Source of the DNA: a bacterium
GTDB lineage: Bacteria; B130-G9
Direction of reading: 5' to 3'
DNA length: 5,324 nucleotides
NCBI GenBank assembly: GCA_021160245.1
Contig: JAGHCW010000054.1
Coordinates: 1-5,324 of the forward strand
The position numbers were made by a program, and so were the translations under genes. This document shows positions 1 through 5,324 of this stretch, piece after piece. Position 1 is the first letter of the stretch. Every line of letters starts with the position of its first letter. Below the pieces are notes generated by a model. That model did no database searches. It was not told the origin of the DNA and saw only the letters and a program-made list of their open reading frames with translations.

Positions 1-72
1 GTACAATACTCCACGAGCGGTAACCGGCGGGGCGTCCGTATCATAAATCTCTGTTCCGGCGACCATCGTCAT
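1..72 (-). CDS. Start of an unidentified downstream gene (partial)
   Basis: Only 24 codons are visible: MTMVAGTEIYDT then DAPPVTARGVLY, running off the left edge. The ATG at 72-70 overlaps the previous stop (ATGA) and has GGAGG 7 nt upstream (84-80), the same arrangement as its neighbours, so the start is well supported. An in-frame ATG at 66-64 is a weaker alternative. I do not recognise the N-terminus. hsdR would be a reasonable expectation for this locus, but the sequence does not resemble HsdR openings I know. Confidence 0.65.
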   Translation of the reverse strand, partial: MTMVAGTEIYDTDAPPVTARGVLY

Positions 73-1034
73 GCCACGTCCTCCACCAGATTCTCGGATA
101 GGTGCTTTGCGACCTTCCGTATTACCTGCAAAACCGCTCGGACGTCCGAATCGTCTACTCTAATCTTTCGTCCTACCACAGCGTTCGGATCGCCGGTCTT
201 GGCAAGGTATTCTTCATCCACAACTCCCATCTTGTGGGCAAACAAGTGGCGCTTCTGAAAGCCACGAACTGCGGCAGCCCACTCGTCGGAGGTCACGCAG
301 GCGGATAGATCGATTCCAAACGTTGAAAGGACGTTCGCTTTCGCTCCGTCAAGATTCTGGAAGCTGACCTTCTCTGCTTTGGCGGGGTCCGCCGCCTTCT
401 GGGCATGGACGCGGCAAAGCTCCCGGCCAAATCCGTCGAAGGCAGAGACGCAGTCTTCCAAAGCGTTCTCAATGAGCTTTCCGGCCAGTTCTTCAGCAGT
501 GCTTGTCGCCAGGACCAGCATCTTCTCGATTACTTCAAGATTCTTGTCGAGGATATGAAGGGAATTATGCTGGCCGCAGTCGGGGCAGAACGCGAAAACC
601 CCATAGACCGAGTACTGGAGCGTGCAATTACCGCATTCGACATTTGTCTCCAGTTCCCGTTCAGCGTAGTGGTGCAAACGGACGGGAGAGGACTTTACGT
701 CCATGCTGAGAGAGAGCAGGCTACCGCGTGTCTGCCGGTTGAAATCCCTCGCCATGTCCTTCATATCGCGAACCACAGCGTTCTGTACCTTGCGCTCGAC
801 AACCGAGGTGACATAATTGATTTGGCTCTGCGTATGGAAGTGGTCCATCGGCCCCTTGTGTCCGCAATAGGGGCAGTGAACCGGCAGGTTTTCTCCCTCC
901 AGCCCGGTGCCAGGCTTAATCTTGAAATACCGCTCGCAGTCAGTGCTCGGACATTCTCTGCCAAGATAGCCCTCCCCATCGAGAGGAAGGGAAATCTGGA
1001 ACTGAATGCCCAAGTTGCGGAGGTGGCGAGTCAT
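69..1034 (-). CDS. Zinc-ribbon protein with HEPN-like C-terminus
   Basis: The product has 321 residues. Two zinc ribbons are visible: Cys28/Cys33 with Cys54/Cys57 (CPSTDC, CPYC), and Cys134/Cys137 with Cys150/Cys153 (CGNC, CPDC). A helical region follows (~163-215). The C-terminal ~100 residues contain FQKRHLFAHKMGVVDEEYL (259-277), where Arg262 and His267 form the R-x4-H signature of HEPN ribonucleases, and end in DVRAVLQVIRKVAKHL. By family knowledge HEPN proteins with this motif are RNases or toxins and are common in defence loci; activity here is inferred. GGGAG lies 7 nt before the ATG, which overlaps the upstream stop (ATGA). The stop at 69-71 overlaps the next start the same way. The last operon genes being PIN-like and HEPN-like suggests two RNA-targeting effectors. 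Alternatively the HEPN fold could be a non-catalytic partner or DUF4145-like module. Confidence 0.85.
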   Translation of the reverse strand: MTRHLRNLGIQFQISLPLDGEGYLGRECPSTDCERYFKIKPGTGLEGENLPVHCPYCGHKGPMDHFHTQSQINYVTSVVERKVQNAVVRDMKDMARDFNRQTRGSLLSLSMDVKSSPVRLHHYAERELETNVECGNCTLQYSVYGVFAFCPDCGQHNSLHILDKNLEVIEKMLVLATSTAEELAGKLIENALEDCVSAFDGFGRELCRVHAQKAADPAKAEKVSFQNLDGAKANVLSTFGIDLSACVTSDEWAAAVRGFQKRHLFAHKMGVVDEEYLAKTGDPNAVVGRKIRVDDSDVRAVLQVIRKVAKHLSENLVEDVA

Positions 1035-2950
1035 TGGAAATCTCCCAGGTCAAGGCCAGTGGCCGCCGCTGCCCGCTTGATGAACCATGTAAGGCAGCGA
1101 TCCTGCACCCGCTGACGCAGACCCTTTACTGTGGTTCCGATCACAAGGTTCTCTAAGGTCATTAGGATGACGACTCCAGAGCCAATGGTGAAGGTCCATC
1201 CCAGGATTGGATTGCTCGGTCGCAAACCCAGACCAGCGGTGAGGCCAGCCACAAGCAGGAGCCCAAGGAATCCGGATGCGAACCAAGCACAATTCTTGGC
1301 TCTTCGACGACACCGCCAGTATAGATGCTCTTGGATTCGCTTTTTCTCGGCTCGCTGAGAAGCAAGCTCTTCTTGGGTCTTGCGATGCGCCTTTTTCTCA
1401 TCCGTGAGCTTCTCGCTCTCCTCCTTCTTGATCTCGTCCGTTACGCGCTTAAGCGTTTCAGTAACAGTTTGTTCGGTTAAAGCCTCTTCATCGCCCAGAG
1501 TCAAACGCATAAGTTCATCTTGTGCAAGCGTGCTGCTTCTGAGCAATTGATGGTCACGCTCGGTGATTTTGCCATTTTCCTCGAGCTTATCGATCTCGGC
1601 CAGATACTTGCCAAGTAGCTCCTTTGAAGGTTGAAGCGCTGCATACGAGAACGCAAGTATCTCAGTGGTCGGGAGAGATGGCGCACCCATCGGAGCCTTG
1701 AGCCACGCCATATTCGCTAAGCTAAAGTCTGTGATCACGCTAGAAACCTCGCATGGCTCCTCGTGTCGTTTTCCATACTCGAACGCCGCTCGAGCAAATC
1801 CGGAATTACTGCTCACGAGAACGGCTCGGCATTTTTCGACCGTGAGCGGTGCAGTTCCTCTTCTAAGCACGTAGATGCTGCGAATTGAGTTGATATCGTA
1901 CTCTTTGGCATGTGGATTGAAGTACGACACTTCATCTTCAAGCACTTTTTCAAATGCGGTTTCATCAATCTGGAAATCCGCAATGTATTGCGGGGTGTCC
2001 TTTACCTCAATCCCAGCCTCGGTGAGTTTCTCATCCACCTGCCCAGCTAATAGCAAAAGGTCTGATCTTGTCGTGCCGCTGCGGCGTGCCTCCATAACGA
2101 TAGCCCCGCGACCATTAACCGCGTCCACGTGTTTCGCAGTTCCCTTAATCACGCGTTCCAGTTCATCCCGAGTGTGAGAAAAGGCAGCGACTGTTGCGCC
2201 AAGTTTCTTTAGAAGCTGGATCAAATCCTCTATTGCTGTCTTCTTGGGTTTGCCTTCGAGGCCCAACCGTTGAACCAGCAGGGGTGTGTCCAGATACAAC
2301 GTTACGCCCTTGTATGTCTTGGGCGCAGACTGGAGGTCTGGGCACAGCAAGGCATTGGCGAGCATGTGGCCTTGCACCATAATTATGAAGCTCTCGAATC
2401 GTTCCGGATCGGTTCGTTGCAGGTGCAGGACGTATTGGCAAACCAACACGATATGACTGTCATGTTTGCCCTTAATTGTCGGAATCACAGTCCCCCGCAA
2501 ATATGCTCGAAGACAGGGGATGTTGAACTGGGATAGGAACGCGCAGATCGCCGTTACCGCGTCATCATCCGTCGTGATAGGTTGCGCTGTGCTCTTGGAG
2601 AAATCTATTAGGCCGACAACCACCGCCTTGATGTGGCGATCAGCACTAGCCTTATCAGCTGCAATACCTGGGTCAGGCAATTGCCCCGTAATACGATAGA
2701 CACCTTTTTGCTTCTTAAGAGGATGCTTGCGAGACAGTCGTTTTAAGACGACCTGCACAGCGCGATCTGGGATCTCCAGTCCGAACTGCATTCGGAGATG
2801 ATCTCGCACCACTGTATCAGTCACAGGGTCGGGCTTCTGGTCAACGAGGACCTGCAAGATAAAAGGACGCAGGTAGTCCAGGTAGTCTTTCCCCTGATCG
2901 ATACTTACCTTGAGCATCGCCAAGCTGGTCAGTGTTGTAGTCGACGTCAT
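1031..2950 (-). CDS. Predicted membrane-anchored PIN-like nuclease with N-terminal winged-helix region
   Basis: The product has 639 residues. Residues ~22-88 look like a winged helix (ILQVLVDQK, VVRDHLRMQFG, AVQVVLKRLSRK, GVYRIT). A PIN-like core follows at ~216-390: YLDT with Asp221, the HTRDELERV helix with Glu263, YDINSI with Asp352 and VLVSSNSGFARAA (377-389) in place of the usual Thr-Asn/Asp strand. The segment to ~500 (MAWLKAP, LPTTEILAFSYAALQPS, KYLAEIDKLEENGKI) is the characteristic extension of these large PIN proteins. Residues ~497-545 are Lys/Glu-rich and probably coiled coil. Two hydrophobic segments (~555-576 and ~583-606) would anchor the C-terminus in the inner membrane. PIN domains are usually metal-dependent RNases. 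Here the acidic residues are plausible but not all certain. AGGAGG precedes the ATG by 7 nt. The location behind hsdS suggests a defence effector, which is inference. Confidence 0.85.
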   Translation of the reverse strand: MTSTTTLTSLAMLKVSIDQGKDYLDYLRPFILQVLVDQKPDPVTDTVVRDHLRMQFGLEIPDRAVQVVLKRLSRKHPLKKQKGVYRITGQLPDPGIAADKASADRHIKAVVVGLIDFSKSTAQPITTDDDAVTAICAFLSQFNIPCLRAYLRGTVIPTIKGKHDSHIVLVCQYVLHLQRTDPERFESFIIMVQGHMLANALLCPDLQSAPKTYKGVTLYLDTPLLVQRLGLEGKPKKTAIEDLIQLLKKLGATVAAFSHTRDELERVIKGTAKHVDAVNGRGAIVMEARRSGTTRSDLLLLAGQVDEKLTEAGIEVKDTPQYIADFQIDETAFEKVLEDEVSYFNPHAKEYDINSIRSIYVLRRGTAPLTVEKCRAVLVSSNSGFARAAFEYGKRHEEPCEVSSVITDFSLANMAWLKAPMGAPSLPTTEILAFSYAALQPSKELLGKYLAEIDKLEENGKITERDHQLLRSSTLAQDELMRLTLGDEEALTEQTVTETLKRVTDEIKKEESEKLTDEKKAHRKTQEELASQRAEKKRIQEHLYWRCRRRAKNCAWFASGFLGLLLVAGLTAGLGLRPSNPILGWTFTIGSGVVILMTLENLVIGTTVKGLRQRVQDRCLTWFIKRAAAATGLDLGDFQ

Positions 2951-3444
2951 TCCGCCACCTCCTCATCGGCTTTCGGGAAGATGGAGGCAAGCTCTGGTTC
3001 GACATCCACGCCGTAAGCGGAGCACAGACGCGCCAGATGCAAGCCGAAGATACCCCGCATCTCACCAAGGGAGTGCCACATGGCGGCTTCGTGTGGATAG
3101 AGCATTCGGCGGGGGCTGCCCGGATGTCCCGTCTGGTCGAGGAATTTACGGCAGGCAGCACGCATGGCACGTATTGGGCCAACGAGTTCTTCGTCCTCCG
3201 AACAAGCTTTGAGAATACTGGTCAGCTCAGCCCGCATTTCGAGGACAGAATTTTCAACCCATGGCCCGTACTCCATATGGAAGTCGGCATAGAGTGCGCG
3301 GCGGTCCTCCAGGAATGCAACAAGGCGGCGGACGATCTCCCGCTTGTCTTCCGCCGGGTTCCAACTCACACCGAAGACGGGGGTCGAGATACCTGTGATC
3401 CGTCTGGCTATGTCGGCAAATGGGATACGACGCTTCTTTCTCAT
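2947..3444 (-). CDS. Conserved small protein between hsdS and the PIN-like gene (function unknown)
   Basis: This 165-residue, soluble-looking, mostly helical protein starts with a basic MRKKRR segment followed by IPFADIARRITGIS (7-20), then FGVSWNP (24-30), a charged helix EIVRRLVAFLEDRRALY (36-52), MEYGPWV (57-63) and IRAMRAACRKFLD (91-103). It has no signal peptide, membrane segment or recognisable catalytic motif. The opening and the FGVSWNP stretch resemble a small family I recall as DUF6650, whose role I do not know; this naming is tentative. GGAGG lies 7 nt before the ATG. The start overlaps the hsdS stop and the stop overlaps the next start, both as ATGA, so its synthesis is probably coupled to HsdS and to the PIN-like protein. 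It could be a regulator, immunity protein or accessory subunit, but the sequence does not say which. Confidence 0.85.
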   Translation of the reverse strand: MRKKRRIPFADIARRITGISTPVFGVSWNPAEDKREIVRRLVAFLEDRRALYADFHMEYGPWVENSVLEMRAELTSILKACSEDEELVGPIRAMRAACRKFLDQTGHPGSPRRMLYPHEAAMWHSLGEMRGIFGLHLARLCSAYGVDVEPELASIFPKADEEVAE

Positions 3445-5057
3445 ACTGCGTCCTCCAAGACCTTTACAGCATCCGGCACCTCCAGCTCGCCGCTCAATAG
3501 CTTAGGAAGCAACGTGTCGCGCAGACGGGCGAGGCGACGGTTCTGTCGAACACTGACCGCGATGCGCTGATGCAGCGCCGCCACATGATTCTGGAATGCA
3601 CTGGCGAGTTCGACTGGAGGCAAAGCTAACGGATACTGGCTCATGTCTTTCCAGTTGGTCCGAGGCATTTTCGTTCCGGCCGAGTGCGAATCTGTGTAGT
3701 CAACAAAGGCCTTGCTGGATACAAGCGAAAGCACATAGCTGTGCCAGTATTCGGTTTTAGGAATCACGACCAAGATATCCGTTGAGCAAACGCCATCGAC
3801 AGGCGCGATGCCAACCTTGTGGAAATATGGACGAAGTTTGCCGAACAGTATTTCGCCTTCCTTGAACCGAGACTTCTGGCTACCCACCTCGTCGGTGCGA
3901 CCCCAGGTATCAAGGGCAATACATCGGCGGGGCATGTGCTGAAGTCCGATGTAAGGAGTCGTAGCCGGGACCTCATCAGGCTTGACGCTCCGGCGAGCGT
4001 TATCCGCTATATCGCCAAGTGCACCGGGTTTCCACCCCTTCGGAATTAGCCCGATCTCGGAATCTTCGAATGAATCCGGGAACAGGTCGGCGATTTCTTT
4101 GGGTAGGTTGGCTTGACTGGCAGATAGAAGATCGCGCTTTTCAATCTCCGCTTTCAGCCATTCACGGCCTGCGCCAGTCTTGAGCTTTTTCTCCCGGCTA
4201 ATGGCTGCTTTTTGTGAGGGCAGTTCTTCCCAATAAGCGATTCGCTTGGAAGAATGAGTCTTTGTCCATTGAGCCCCCTTCCCGGAGCAATGCTTATCAA
4301 ACCGTCGTGAAATATCCTCTGTGTGTCCAATGTAGATACTGCCATCCTCACATTCCAACGCGTAAACAAACCAAACTCCCGGACGTGGTGCTGGAGAGGC
4401 CTTCCTGCCTGCCGGCAGGCAGGCGGCCTTGGCGCGGACAGGGTCGAAGTCGATGAACCAGCACTTGAAAATCGCCGCCGCCATCGCCTCCAACGTCTCG
4501 TTCATCCGCCGGTTCAATTCGATCTTGTCGTCCAGCGCTCCCAGGATGTAGGCGATGGCCTGTTGTTGTTTGAGGGGGGGGAGAGGCACTTCAATACGAT
4601 TGATGTCTCTTATCGGCAACTGAGGTTGAGCGCTTCCGGTCCGTAGAGCAAGTACCCGAGTCGCAAAAGTGGAAGATCGAAGAAAGAAATATAGATACCT
4701 TGGATTAACCCTTGAAGTATCGGATCGAAAGATGACCATGCCAGAGTTTATGCGTACATGTTCGTAAGGGACAGCCGCATCATAGTAGGCCACATTACCA
4801 ACAGTGCCACGAGTGGTCATTACGACATCTTGGCGTTTAAGTTTTCCCTTGCGAAGGATTACGTCCTTCTCTTGGGTTATGAATTTGCAGTTGGAGAAAT
4901 CAAAGCCATCCTTCGTTACATTACCCGTATTCAGAAACAAGCAATATCCCGATTCCGAGAATTCATGCATCTTGGGATAATTCTTGCCTCTGTCTCCGTC
5001 TATGATTTCAATGGGAGCTTCGTCAAACGGCAGCGTTGTCCACTCGTCACCCGCCAT
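3441..5057 (-). CDS. hsdS: Type I RM specificity subunit HsdS with an internal GIY-YIG domain
   Basis: This 538-residue protein chooses the DNA target of a type I restriction-modification complex through two target recognition domains (TRDs). TRD1 is about 1-160, ending in the classic PLPPLKQQQ boundary (158-166). The first conserved helix and linker are ~166-212 ([30 protein letters not shown]). The second half resumes at [19 protein letters not shown] (318-336), with TRD2 ~340-475 ([31 protein letters not shown]), then [10 protein letters not shown] and a helix ending in [10 protein letters not shown] (516-525). HsdS is usually about 400-450 residues. The excess of ~105 residues is a GIY-YIG domain (~229-302) in the inter-half linker, preceded by a palindrome-encoded ACLPAGR. 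The ATG at 5057 has AGGAGG 9 nt upstream, and the stop overlaps the next start (ATGA). The frame is intact, so the protein may be functional with the domain looped out. The recognised sequence cannot be deduced. Confidence 0.93.
4152..4373 (-). other. Complete GIY-YIG endonuclease domain inside HsdS
   Basis: Residues ~229-302 of HsdS read [11 protein letters not shown], then [17 protein letters not shown], a KGAQWTKTH loop, AYWEELPS and [17 protein letters not shown]. These correspond to the GIY strand (VYAL, Tyr232), the YIG strand (Tyr242-Ile-Gly244), the catalytic-helix Arg (251/252) and His256, and a Glu in YWEE (277/278) as the likely metal ligand. By family knowledge these are the residues used for single-strand nicking by the UvrC/YhbQ-type fold. 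All appear present, so the domain may be catalytically competent. It carries no additional DNA-binding domain of its own, so the HsdS TRDs would be its only obvious DNA-targeting module. Activity is inference. Confidence 0.88.
4404..4423. repeat. Perfect 20-bp palindrome at the 5' edge of the hsdS GIY-YIG insertion
   Basis: CCTGCCTGCCGGCAGGCAGG is a perfect inverted repeat without a loop. It is open in all six frames and reads CLPAGR in the hsdS frame. GGCCTT occurs directly on both sides (4398-4403 and 4425-4430), 27 bp apart. If this is a target-site duplication, the event added 27 bp (9 codons) and kept the frame. From memory, the CLPAGRQ-type peptide turns up in translated genes of various uncultured bacteria, usually as repeat-derived sequence. 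Confidence 0.85.
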
Positions 5058-5324
5058 AGCCGATGTCCTCCTGTCTGCGTGCGTCCACGCACAGGCAGGC
5101 CAGATTGGCCCAGATGATCTGGTCGAGCTTGGCTGACTGCTCCGTCTGCTCGCGCAAGGCGGTGGTCAGACGGGCCATCTTCTCCTCGAACGGCTCACCG
5201 CCTGCCTGCCGCGCCCGTCCTTCTGCGATGGCTTTTTTCAACCAACGTCGTCCATTGGTGGTTTTCAATTCTTTTTCACGCTCAACGGCTTCCTCACGAC
5301 TCGTGAATTCCTCGTAATGGGCAA
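5047..5324 (-). CDS. hsdM: Type I RM methyltransferase subunit HsdM, C-terminal end with GIY-YIG insertion (partial)
   Basis: The open frame enters from the right edge (first whole codon 5322-5320) and gives 91 visible residues before TGA at 5049-5047. Residues 1-32 of the visible part (AHYEEF...REKELK...GRRWLKKAI) are the last third of a GIY-YIG nuclease domain. They are followed by a repeat-derived GRARQAGG, then [17 protein letters not shown] and a C-terminal GYGG. That tail is what I know from a group of HsdM (N6-adenine methyltransferase, NPPY class) proteins, and the gene directly precedes hsdS, which supports the call. The catalytic methylase domain would lie beyond the window and is not seen. 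The tail contains a 10-codon palindromic insertion (residues ~76-85, CLCVDARRQ) that interrupts the expected NLxxIGYGG ending. The stop overlaps the hsdS start by 11 bp. Whether the GIY-YIG part is fused to the methylase, or is a separate ORF that captured the HsdM tail, cannot be decided here. Confidence 0.72.
5067..5072 (-). promoter_or_regulatory. Shine-Dalgarno of hsdS, half made by the palindromic repeat
   Basis: AGGAGG on the minus strand lies 9 nt before the hsdS ATG (5057-5055), within the last codons of hsdM. Its first three bases are the terminal AGG of the inserted 30-bp repeat (5072-5070) and its last three are hsdM sequence. Before insertion the site would have read CTGGAGGAC, also a good ribosome binding site, so the insertion split it and rebuilt it. 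The hairpin immediately upstream might affect access to the site. Confidence 0.7.
5070..5099. repeat. Imperfect 30-bp palindromic repeat inserted in the 3' end of hsdM
   Basis: The outer arms are CCTGTCT (5070-5076) and AGGCAGG (5093-5099), pairing with one G-T. The inner stem is GTGCGT (5079-5084) and ACGCAC (5087-5092) with a CC loop, and GC (5077-5078) bulges on one side. All six frames through the repeat lack stops, and the hsdM frame reads CLCVDARRQ. Removing exactly these 30 bp joins CTGG to AGGAC and gives NLEDIGYGG, a normal-looking HsdM end, so the insertion appears precise. The outer arms resemble those of the palindrome at 4404-4423, suggesting one repeat family. Confidence 0.7.
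5201..5211. repeat. Half-palindrome at the downstream edge of the hsdM GIY-YIG insertion
   Basis: The + strand CCTGCCTGCCG here is identical over 11 bp to one side of the perfect palindrome at 4404-4414. In the hsdM frame it encodes the RQAGG part of [10 protein letters not shown], exactly between the end of the GIY-YIG domain and the resumption of HsdM-like sequence (EPFEEKM). It therefore looks like a boundary remnant of the inserted element. The short length means chance similarity is possible, but position and identity together argue for common origin. Confidence 0.55.
5227..5324 (-). other. C-terminal part of a GIY-YIG nuclease domain within the hsdM reading frame
   Basis: The visible residues [20 protein letters not shown], followed by GRRWLKKAI, match the end of the small GIY-YIG (UvrC N-terminal/YhbQ-like) fold: a Tyr-Glu-Glu strand, the R-E-x-A-x-x-R-E-K helix and a closing G-R-x-W-L-K. 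They align closely with residues 275-305 of the hsdS product ([29 protein letters not shown]). At DNA level the two copies are clearly diverged, so this is not a recent duplication. The GIY, YIG and catalytic Arg portion lies beyond the window edge. HsdM proteins do not normally carry this domain, so I read it as inserted. Confidence 0.75.

Follow-up and report, generated by a model that had tools for sequence, protein, structure and literature searches.

The Rickettsia palindromic element is a short palindrome that lies in frame within coding genes and carries no nuclease. In REP/RAYT systems, palindromes are paired with a nuclease, the tyrosine transposase RAYT, which is encoded by its own gene and is thought to mobilise the REP sequences. 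The element described here is a palindrome-associated GIY-YIG nuclease that lies in frame within two type I restriction-modification genes, hsdS and hsdM, of a 5,324 bp contig (JAGHCW010000054.1, assembly GCA_021160245.1; hereafter the window). Its nuclease-less mini copies resemble the in-frame palindromes of Rickettsia, whereas its complete copies carry a nuclease. It shares with REP/RAYT the pairing of palindromes with a nuclease, but that nuclease is a GIY-YIG domain read in the frame of its host gene. This previously unrecognised element has entered the restriction-modification genes of unrelated bacteria again and again.

Two literature precedents, and only two, were found among open-licence publications. 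A survey of GIY-YIG proteins described an insertion of this domain in HsdR MCA0838 of Methylococcus capsulatus, absent from a close Deinococcus homologue; the authors called it unique and of recent origin, and allowed that it might lack functional relevance (Dunin-Horkawicz et al., 2006; PMC1564403). It is likewise a GIY-YIG domain inserted in HsdR, compared here with the present clade by its published description; that report concerned a single case, and recognised no terminal repeats, recurrence, other subunits, mini copies or element. The DNA methylase gene of an actinobacteriophage carries the ShiLan domain, a homing-like insertion that does not splice and is apparently tolerated with the frame open (PMC11855218). 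As far as the available part of that account goes, it too keeps the reading frame of a methylase gene open, but its HNH nuclease occupies another frame with its own start codon and its hosts are phages, whereas the present nuclease is in the host frame; that part of the account does not mention terminal inverted repeats, which the present element has. Stand-alone GIY-YIG proteins of the UPF0213/YhbQ type share the fold and sequence family of the inserts, with BH0048 and EF2693 as the nearest solved structures; unlike the in-frame inserts, they are short free-standing genes with their own start and form a separate tree branch. The open-licence literature yielded no description of this family, of its repeats or of the way in which it is concentrated in restriction genes, which is not proof of absence, and a search there for in-frame palindromic elements and REP/RAYT gave nothing specific.

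The hsdS product of the window matches Pfam Methylase_S in two stretches (E = 7.5e-26) within a single uninterrupted frame of 538 amino acids, and the PADLOC Specificity_I profile spans residues 5–536. Between the two specificity halves lies a GIY-YIG domain (residues 229–294; E = 1.1e-14; 55 bits against a cut-off of 22.6). Insert-free HsdS relatives are abundant and represent the norm, among them the closely related locus L089 (genome G107). The preliminary description, which placed a GIY-YIG domain in frame in the HsdS linker and named a failed profile search or a lack of insert-free relatives as grounds for doubt, is thus borne out. Of the limits that it gave (4107–4430), the first holds and the second takes in two host codons, as the insert starts at 4424; the boundaries are uncertain by up to about 10 codons, with the frame kept on both sides. 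Its catalytic Tyr232, Tyr242, Arg252 and His256 occupy positions that are invariant or nearly so in the insert family; the catalytic glutamate is Glu289, within the motif SREKK, and not Glu277/278 as proposed there, and this glutamate is invariant in 28/28 copies. HsdS has two target-recognition domains joined by long helices, and the AlphaFold model aligns over its full length with 1yf2 and 7vs4. The model keeps the long conserved helices and the second recognition domain, and its confident GIY-YIG domain is flanked by low-confidence linkers. The insert begins with a perfect palindrome, CCTGCCTGCCGGCAGGCAGG, the core of which occurs once in the genome. The same palindrome-then-nuclease layout is found in L079, where an insert 83% identical to that of the window occupies the same place in hsdS.

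A second copy in hsdM, missed by the preliminary description, widens the original observation. Its C-terminal half is encoded before the contig ends; it has a standard right end and shares 50% identity over 34 amino acids with the hsdS insert, and the hsdM end of the window is 90% identical in DNA sequence to L077, another HsdM with an insert. Locus L089, which shares 92% DNA identity with the window over 5100–5200 and 85% over 4424–4567, is without the hsdS insert, the hsdM insert and a 30-nt palindrome also present in hsdM, so that three in-frame insertions lie within about 1.2 kb of the window. At the hsdM insertion place the insert-free relative reads EDD/GVPFEEKM (here and below, a slash marks the insertion point); the empty-allele junction is GAGGACGAC/GGCGAGCC, and the HsdM junction of L089 reads PVEDDGVPFEEKM. 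The window is a whole 5.3-kb contig from a metagenome-assembled genome, it ends inside an insert, and its palindrome is found nowhere else in that genome, features that could indicate an artefact of assembly or a chimeric join near the end of a short contig. Independently assembled sequences, however, show the same architecture, two isolates and a 1.5-Mb contig among them, as does L079 at the same hsdS place; these loci rule out an artefact for the architecture, and we regard that explanation as extremely improbable.

The query for the family searches was the nuclease insert of a second genome (L015), the whole HsdS having been used only in the very first search. In 386 diverse bacterial genomes, the five strong matches (88–217 bits) all lie inside frames of 548–1179 amino acids, while the other 24 matches score below 58 bits and are nearly all short stand-alone genes. 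A scan of 84,980 species genomes gave 28 loci, spread over roughly 18 phyla; among the carriers, Tangfeifania diversioriginum DSM 27063 and Cyclobacterium lianum are isolates. Each of these elements lies within another gene, in its frame, except that L069, L076 and L077 have it within the broken remnant of one. Bacteroidota and Gammaproteobacteria samples added L180, L181 and L183. Counting both window copies, 33 copies lie inside other genes, and 31 of the 33 hosts are restriction or defence proteins: HsdM (11), HsdS (10), HsdR (6), HmaA (2), HmaB (1) and a type IIG enzyme (1). The remaining two are a Doc-like toxin and an insertion sequence-like/PD-(D/E)XK protein. This host bias is not built in, because the searches used the nuclease and not the host; a binomial probability of 2e-38, even with 5% of genes eligible, is illustrative only, as the copies are not independent. 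Insertion places vary, and include the middle of HsdS, a C-terminal loop of HsdS, two HsdM families and several positions in HsdR. In locus L087 (5764–6456), the element splits the Doc/Fic catalytic motif (HPFIN/GNKR) of a death-on-curing-like toxin, which is probably inactivated, judging from its sequence. A viral source was rejected: two scans of viral contigs found no member of the family, and phage and plasmid collections gave distant stand-alone relatives only.

The 19 complete copies, defined as those having both ends, are 267–297 bp long and are all multiples of three (19/19). They are bounded by 14-bp imperfect terminal inverted repeats, CCTGCCTGC(G)CCGCG...GCGCGGCAGGCAGG, with a left end of CCTGCCTGCGCCGCG and a right end of GCGCGGCAGGCAGG. 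The left flank is GAC (18/19, 17/19 and 17/19 at its three positions) and the right flank is G (16/19), giving a GAC/G site that is entered in the same codon phase. No target duplication was found at the flanks of the complete copies. The reading frame is open through both junctions in intact copies and the nuclease is in the host frame; no conserved start codon was found before it, and it has no stop codon of its own. In the terminal seven codons, third-position pair identity is 0.62–1.00 (mean 0.86) against a mean of 0.37 inside (P = 6e-5), where it is 0.21–0.31 at most four-fold codons and synonymous sites are near saturation, or near random. This contrast indicates that the ends are preserved at the DNA level and the middle at the protein level, as would be expected if a mobile element has ends that are recognised. 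The nuclease itself is under strong purifying selection, with a ratio of nonsynonymous to synonymous divergence (dN/dS) of about 0.04–0.14 where dS could be estimated, and its catalytic Tyr, Arg, His and Glu are invariant or nearly so across 28 copies. A PF01541 match above the curated cut-off, together with the catalytic Tyr, Tyr, Arg, His and Glu, places it in the GIY-YIG nuclease superfamily. The model of the insert family (predicted local distance difference test 88.6) has a GIY-YIG fold, with UPF0213 proteins and the branch-cutting nuclease Slx1 as top Foldseek matches. Fold Z-scores are 6.8 to Slx1 and 5.9 to I-TevI, and GIY-YIG entries rank ahead of unrelated ones; the modelled likeness to UPF0213/Slx1 is moderate, because Z is under 7.

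Several known classes of insertion were considered and rejected. Inteins start with Cys, Ser or Thr and end in Asn, which Cys, Ser or Thr follows; the copies start with Leu-Pro-Ala-Pro and end with Arg-Gln-Ala-Gly, with only the nuclease and no splicing blocks in between, which excludes an intein. There is no room for a group I or II intron in 267–297 bp, and Rfam finds none in the window and nine loci. A free-standing homing endonuclease gene is excluded by the open junctions and the lack of a conserved start codon, with the exception of a relative in L184 described below. Terminal inverted repeats are present, as in insertion sequences and transposons, but there is neither a transposase nor a target duplication, and only the GIY-YIG domain is encoded. 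Translational bypassing is not needed, as the complete copies are all multiples of three without stops, and an inherited domain of the HsdS family is excluded by the predominance of insert-free relatives.

Nuclease-less palindromes with the same asymmetric ends lie in frame in HsdR, HsdM, HmaB and type IIG genes of the carrier genomes. All mini copies examined there have pattern lengths of 1 mod 3, so the whole mini insertion is a multiple of three, and near-identical copies occupy different sites in a Syntrophaceae HsdR and a WOR-3 HsdR. Among the 386 genomes, a strict mini pattern gave 27 sites in 12 genomes, against 0 for a reversed control. Mini copies are not exclusive to restriction genes, as they were also found in other genes and between genes of this set. 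They are commoner in genomes with complete copies (2/5 versus 10/381; P = 0.008), and in both of the complete-copy genomes concerned they lie in the same gene as the complete copy. In-frame mini palindromes in L155, L159, L167, L170, L172 and others are in non-restriction genes, which by eye resemble RmuC, uroporphyrinogen decarboxylase, an aconitase-family protein and primase. Genome G072 has six copies of a 32-bp intergenic form. In L184 (genome G848; reverse strand, about 1470–1780), a relative of the nuclease is encoded by a free-standing gene, which has an ATG and a stop of its own and directly follows an inserted palindrome at the 3′ end of an hsdM. An apparent DUF1016 gene comes next.

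The mini copies raise the possibility of palindrome-driven transposition, whereby a Slx1/UPF0213-like nuclease would recognise the hairpins or cruciforms of the repeats and mobilise both itself and the mini copies. The closest solved structures, the conserved terminal repeats, the mini copies that share these ends and recur almost unchanged at different HsdR sites, and the free-standing nuclease beside a palindrome in L184 all agree with such a process. Complete copies, however, cluster by insertion site in the insert tree (12 changes versus 23.4 in shuffles), as expected of homing. The fold Z-scores are below 8, and we know of no GIY-YIG enzyme that acts as a transposase. We therefore consider this explanation rather unlikely, though a serious competitor.

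In the same tree, all inserts separate from the stand-alone relatives (support 86/78), the HmaA inserts nest within HsdM inserts (97/91), and the HsdR and second-type HsdM inserts are intermixed. The HsdM tree places five carriers in five places among 30 non-carriers, and its well-supported branches force five changes, which indicates repeated gain or loss at the same codon site. The HsdM of L068 is 88% and 87% identical to those of the insert-free G107 and G027, and 79% and 69% identical to those of the carriers L066 and L070, with whose inserts its own shares 87% and 83% identity. Presence at one site is thus patchy and the history of the insert differs from that of its host, as in homing elements. 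Plasmid records with an uninterrupted empty junction number 95 for HsdM and 62 for HsdS.

Host identity and selection could also be read as signs that the GIY-YIG domain was recruited as an accessory nuclease or nickase of restriction-modification complexes and kept for its benefit in defence. Nearly all in-frame hosts serve in restriction or defence, purifying selection on the nuclease is strong, and HsdR copies at one site appear to be inherited with the gene. Such a role accounts poorly for different insertion places in unrelated subunits, patchiness among close relatives, end conservation at the DNA level that is superfluous for protein function, nuclease-less copies in the same genes, and a copy that splits a Doc motif. 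We judge it improbable, though still a competitor. The same evidence bears on the two alternatives of the preliminary description: a selfish nuclease in a tolerated loop is well supported by a recurrent element with DNA-conserved inverted-repeat ends in several unrelated genes, while a site-directed nickase/methyltransferase hybrid as the reason for its presence agrees with the hosts and the selection but is weakened by the nuclease-less derivatives and the split toxin motif.

The explanation that we favour, and consider likely, is a selfish, homing-like small mobile element that is translated as a domain of its host. A complete copy consists of a 14-bp imperfect terminal inverted repeat, a GIY-YIG frame without conserved start or stop, and the other repeat. 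Landing in phase at GAC/G, it would be read straight through by ribosomes, and the nuclease would be produced solely as a domain within the host protein, from which it would loop out. The predicted nuclease would nick or cut element-free DNA, and repair would copy the element in. Restriction genes would suit such an element by moving between genomes and meeting empty alleles, and, when mobile, may be favoured as hosts because the same cell would often contain both a filled and an empty allele. Several observations weigh against this explanation. The GAC/G preference is far too short to account for the restriction-gene bias. The related HsdR copies L071, L074 and L078, as well as L080/L081, are without recognisable repeats, and the hsdS copy of the window is atypical: it has the 5′ palindrome but lacks the repeat on the right. 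On the HsdM tree, parsimony does not distinguish repeated gain from repeated loss, and at shared sites insert and host are often about equally diverged. In L071/L074/L078, equal divergence is accompanied by purifying selection on both host and insert, so that some copies must have passed down with their hosts over a long time, and these hosts seem to have remained functional.

The window spans all of contig C244, which belongs to a metagenome-assembled genome of 3.43 Mb (G000); the features of the window are given in Table 1. Neither the palindrome nor the element occurs elsewhere in G000, and the contig may therefore have been acquired recently as an island, or else reflect contamination at the binning stage.

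Table 1. Features of the hsdS–hsdM window
Feature	Position	Strand	Remarks
321-amino-acid protein gene	69–1034	-	After hsdS; without confident family; matches candidate defence family PDC-M14A
639-amino-acid protein gene	1031–2950	-	After hsdS; without family match
DUF6650 protein gene	2947–3444	-	3′ of hsdS
hsdS, type I specificity subunit with GIY-YIG insert, 538 amino acids	3441–5057	-	Pfam Methylase_S x2 + GIY-YIG
hsdS insert (palindrome + GIY-YIG nuclease), residues 212–~317	4107–4424	-	Versus insert-free G107/L089 and insert-bearing L079
GIY-YIG catalytic core: Tyr232, Tyr242, Arg252, His256, Glu289	4176–4373	-	PF01541 match, 58.9 bits
Perfect palindrome CCTGCCTGCCGGCAGGCAGG, translated CLPAGR	4404–4423	.	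5′ side of hsdS insert
hsdM 3′ end	5047–5322	-	Runs off contig end inside second GIY-YIG insert
Bare 30-nt in-frame palindrome in hsdM, near its 3′ end	5071–5100	.	Exactly missing from insert-free relative (GCCAATCTG/GAGGACATC)
Second GIY-YIG element, C-terminal 41 codons visible, ending in right terminal repeat GCGCGGCAGGCAGGC	5200–5322	-	In hsdM, cut by contig end
Right terminal inverted repeat of hsdM copy	5200–5214	-	Inverted partner of 4413–4426

A different nuclease was observed in similar hosts. The HsdM of L070 (4072–6375) has an in-frame DUF559 nuclease domain at residues 486–592 (PF04480; E = 7e-38) in addition to its GIY-YIG element, and the HsdR of L180 also has an in-frame DUF559 insert, by sequence resemblance. 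These inserts are bounded by a different palindrome family, of the CCCTCACCC...GGGTGAGGG type.

Tentatively, and with somewhat less than even confidence, the family might represent a new class of mobile element: an inverted-repeat-bounded nuclease of about 285 bp without its own start codon, found nowhere but within restriction and defence proteins as an internal domain, mobilising nuclease-less palindromic satellites and using restriction proteins as vehicles between genomes, with an analogous DUF559-based element in the same genes. If the homing-like reading is correct, a domain insertion published as unique becomes a widespread element, and homing nucleases gain a further means of residing in a coding gene, one that needs neither splicing nor a separate start codon. 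It would also suggest an origin for in-frame palindromes in bacterial proteins. The questions raised are why restriction genes are the hosts, whether the host enzyme directs its passenger nuclease, and whether such passengers are a source of nuclease modules for defence.
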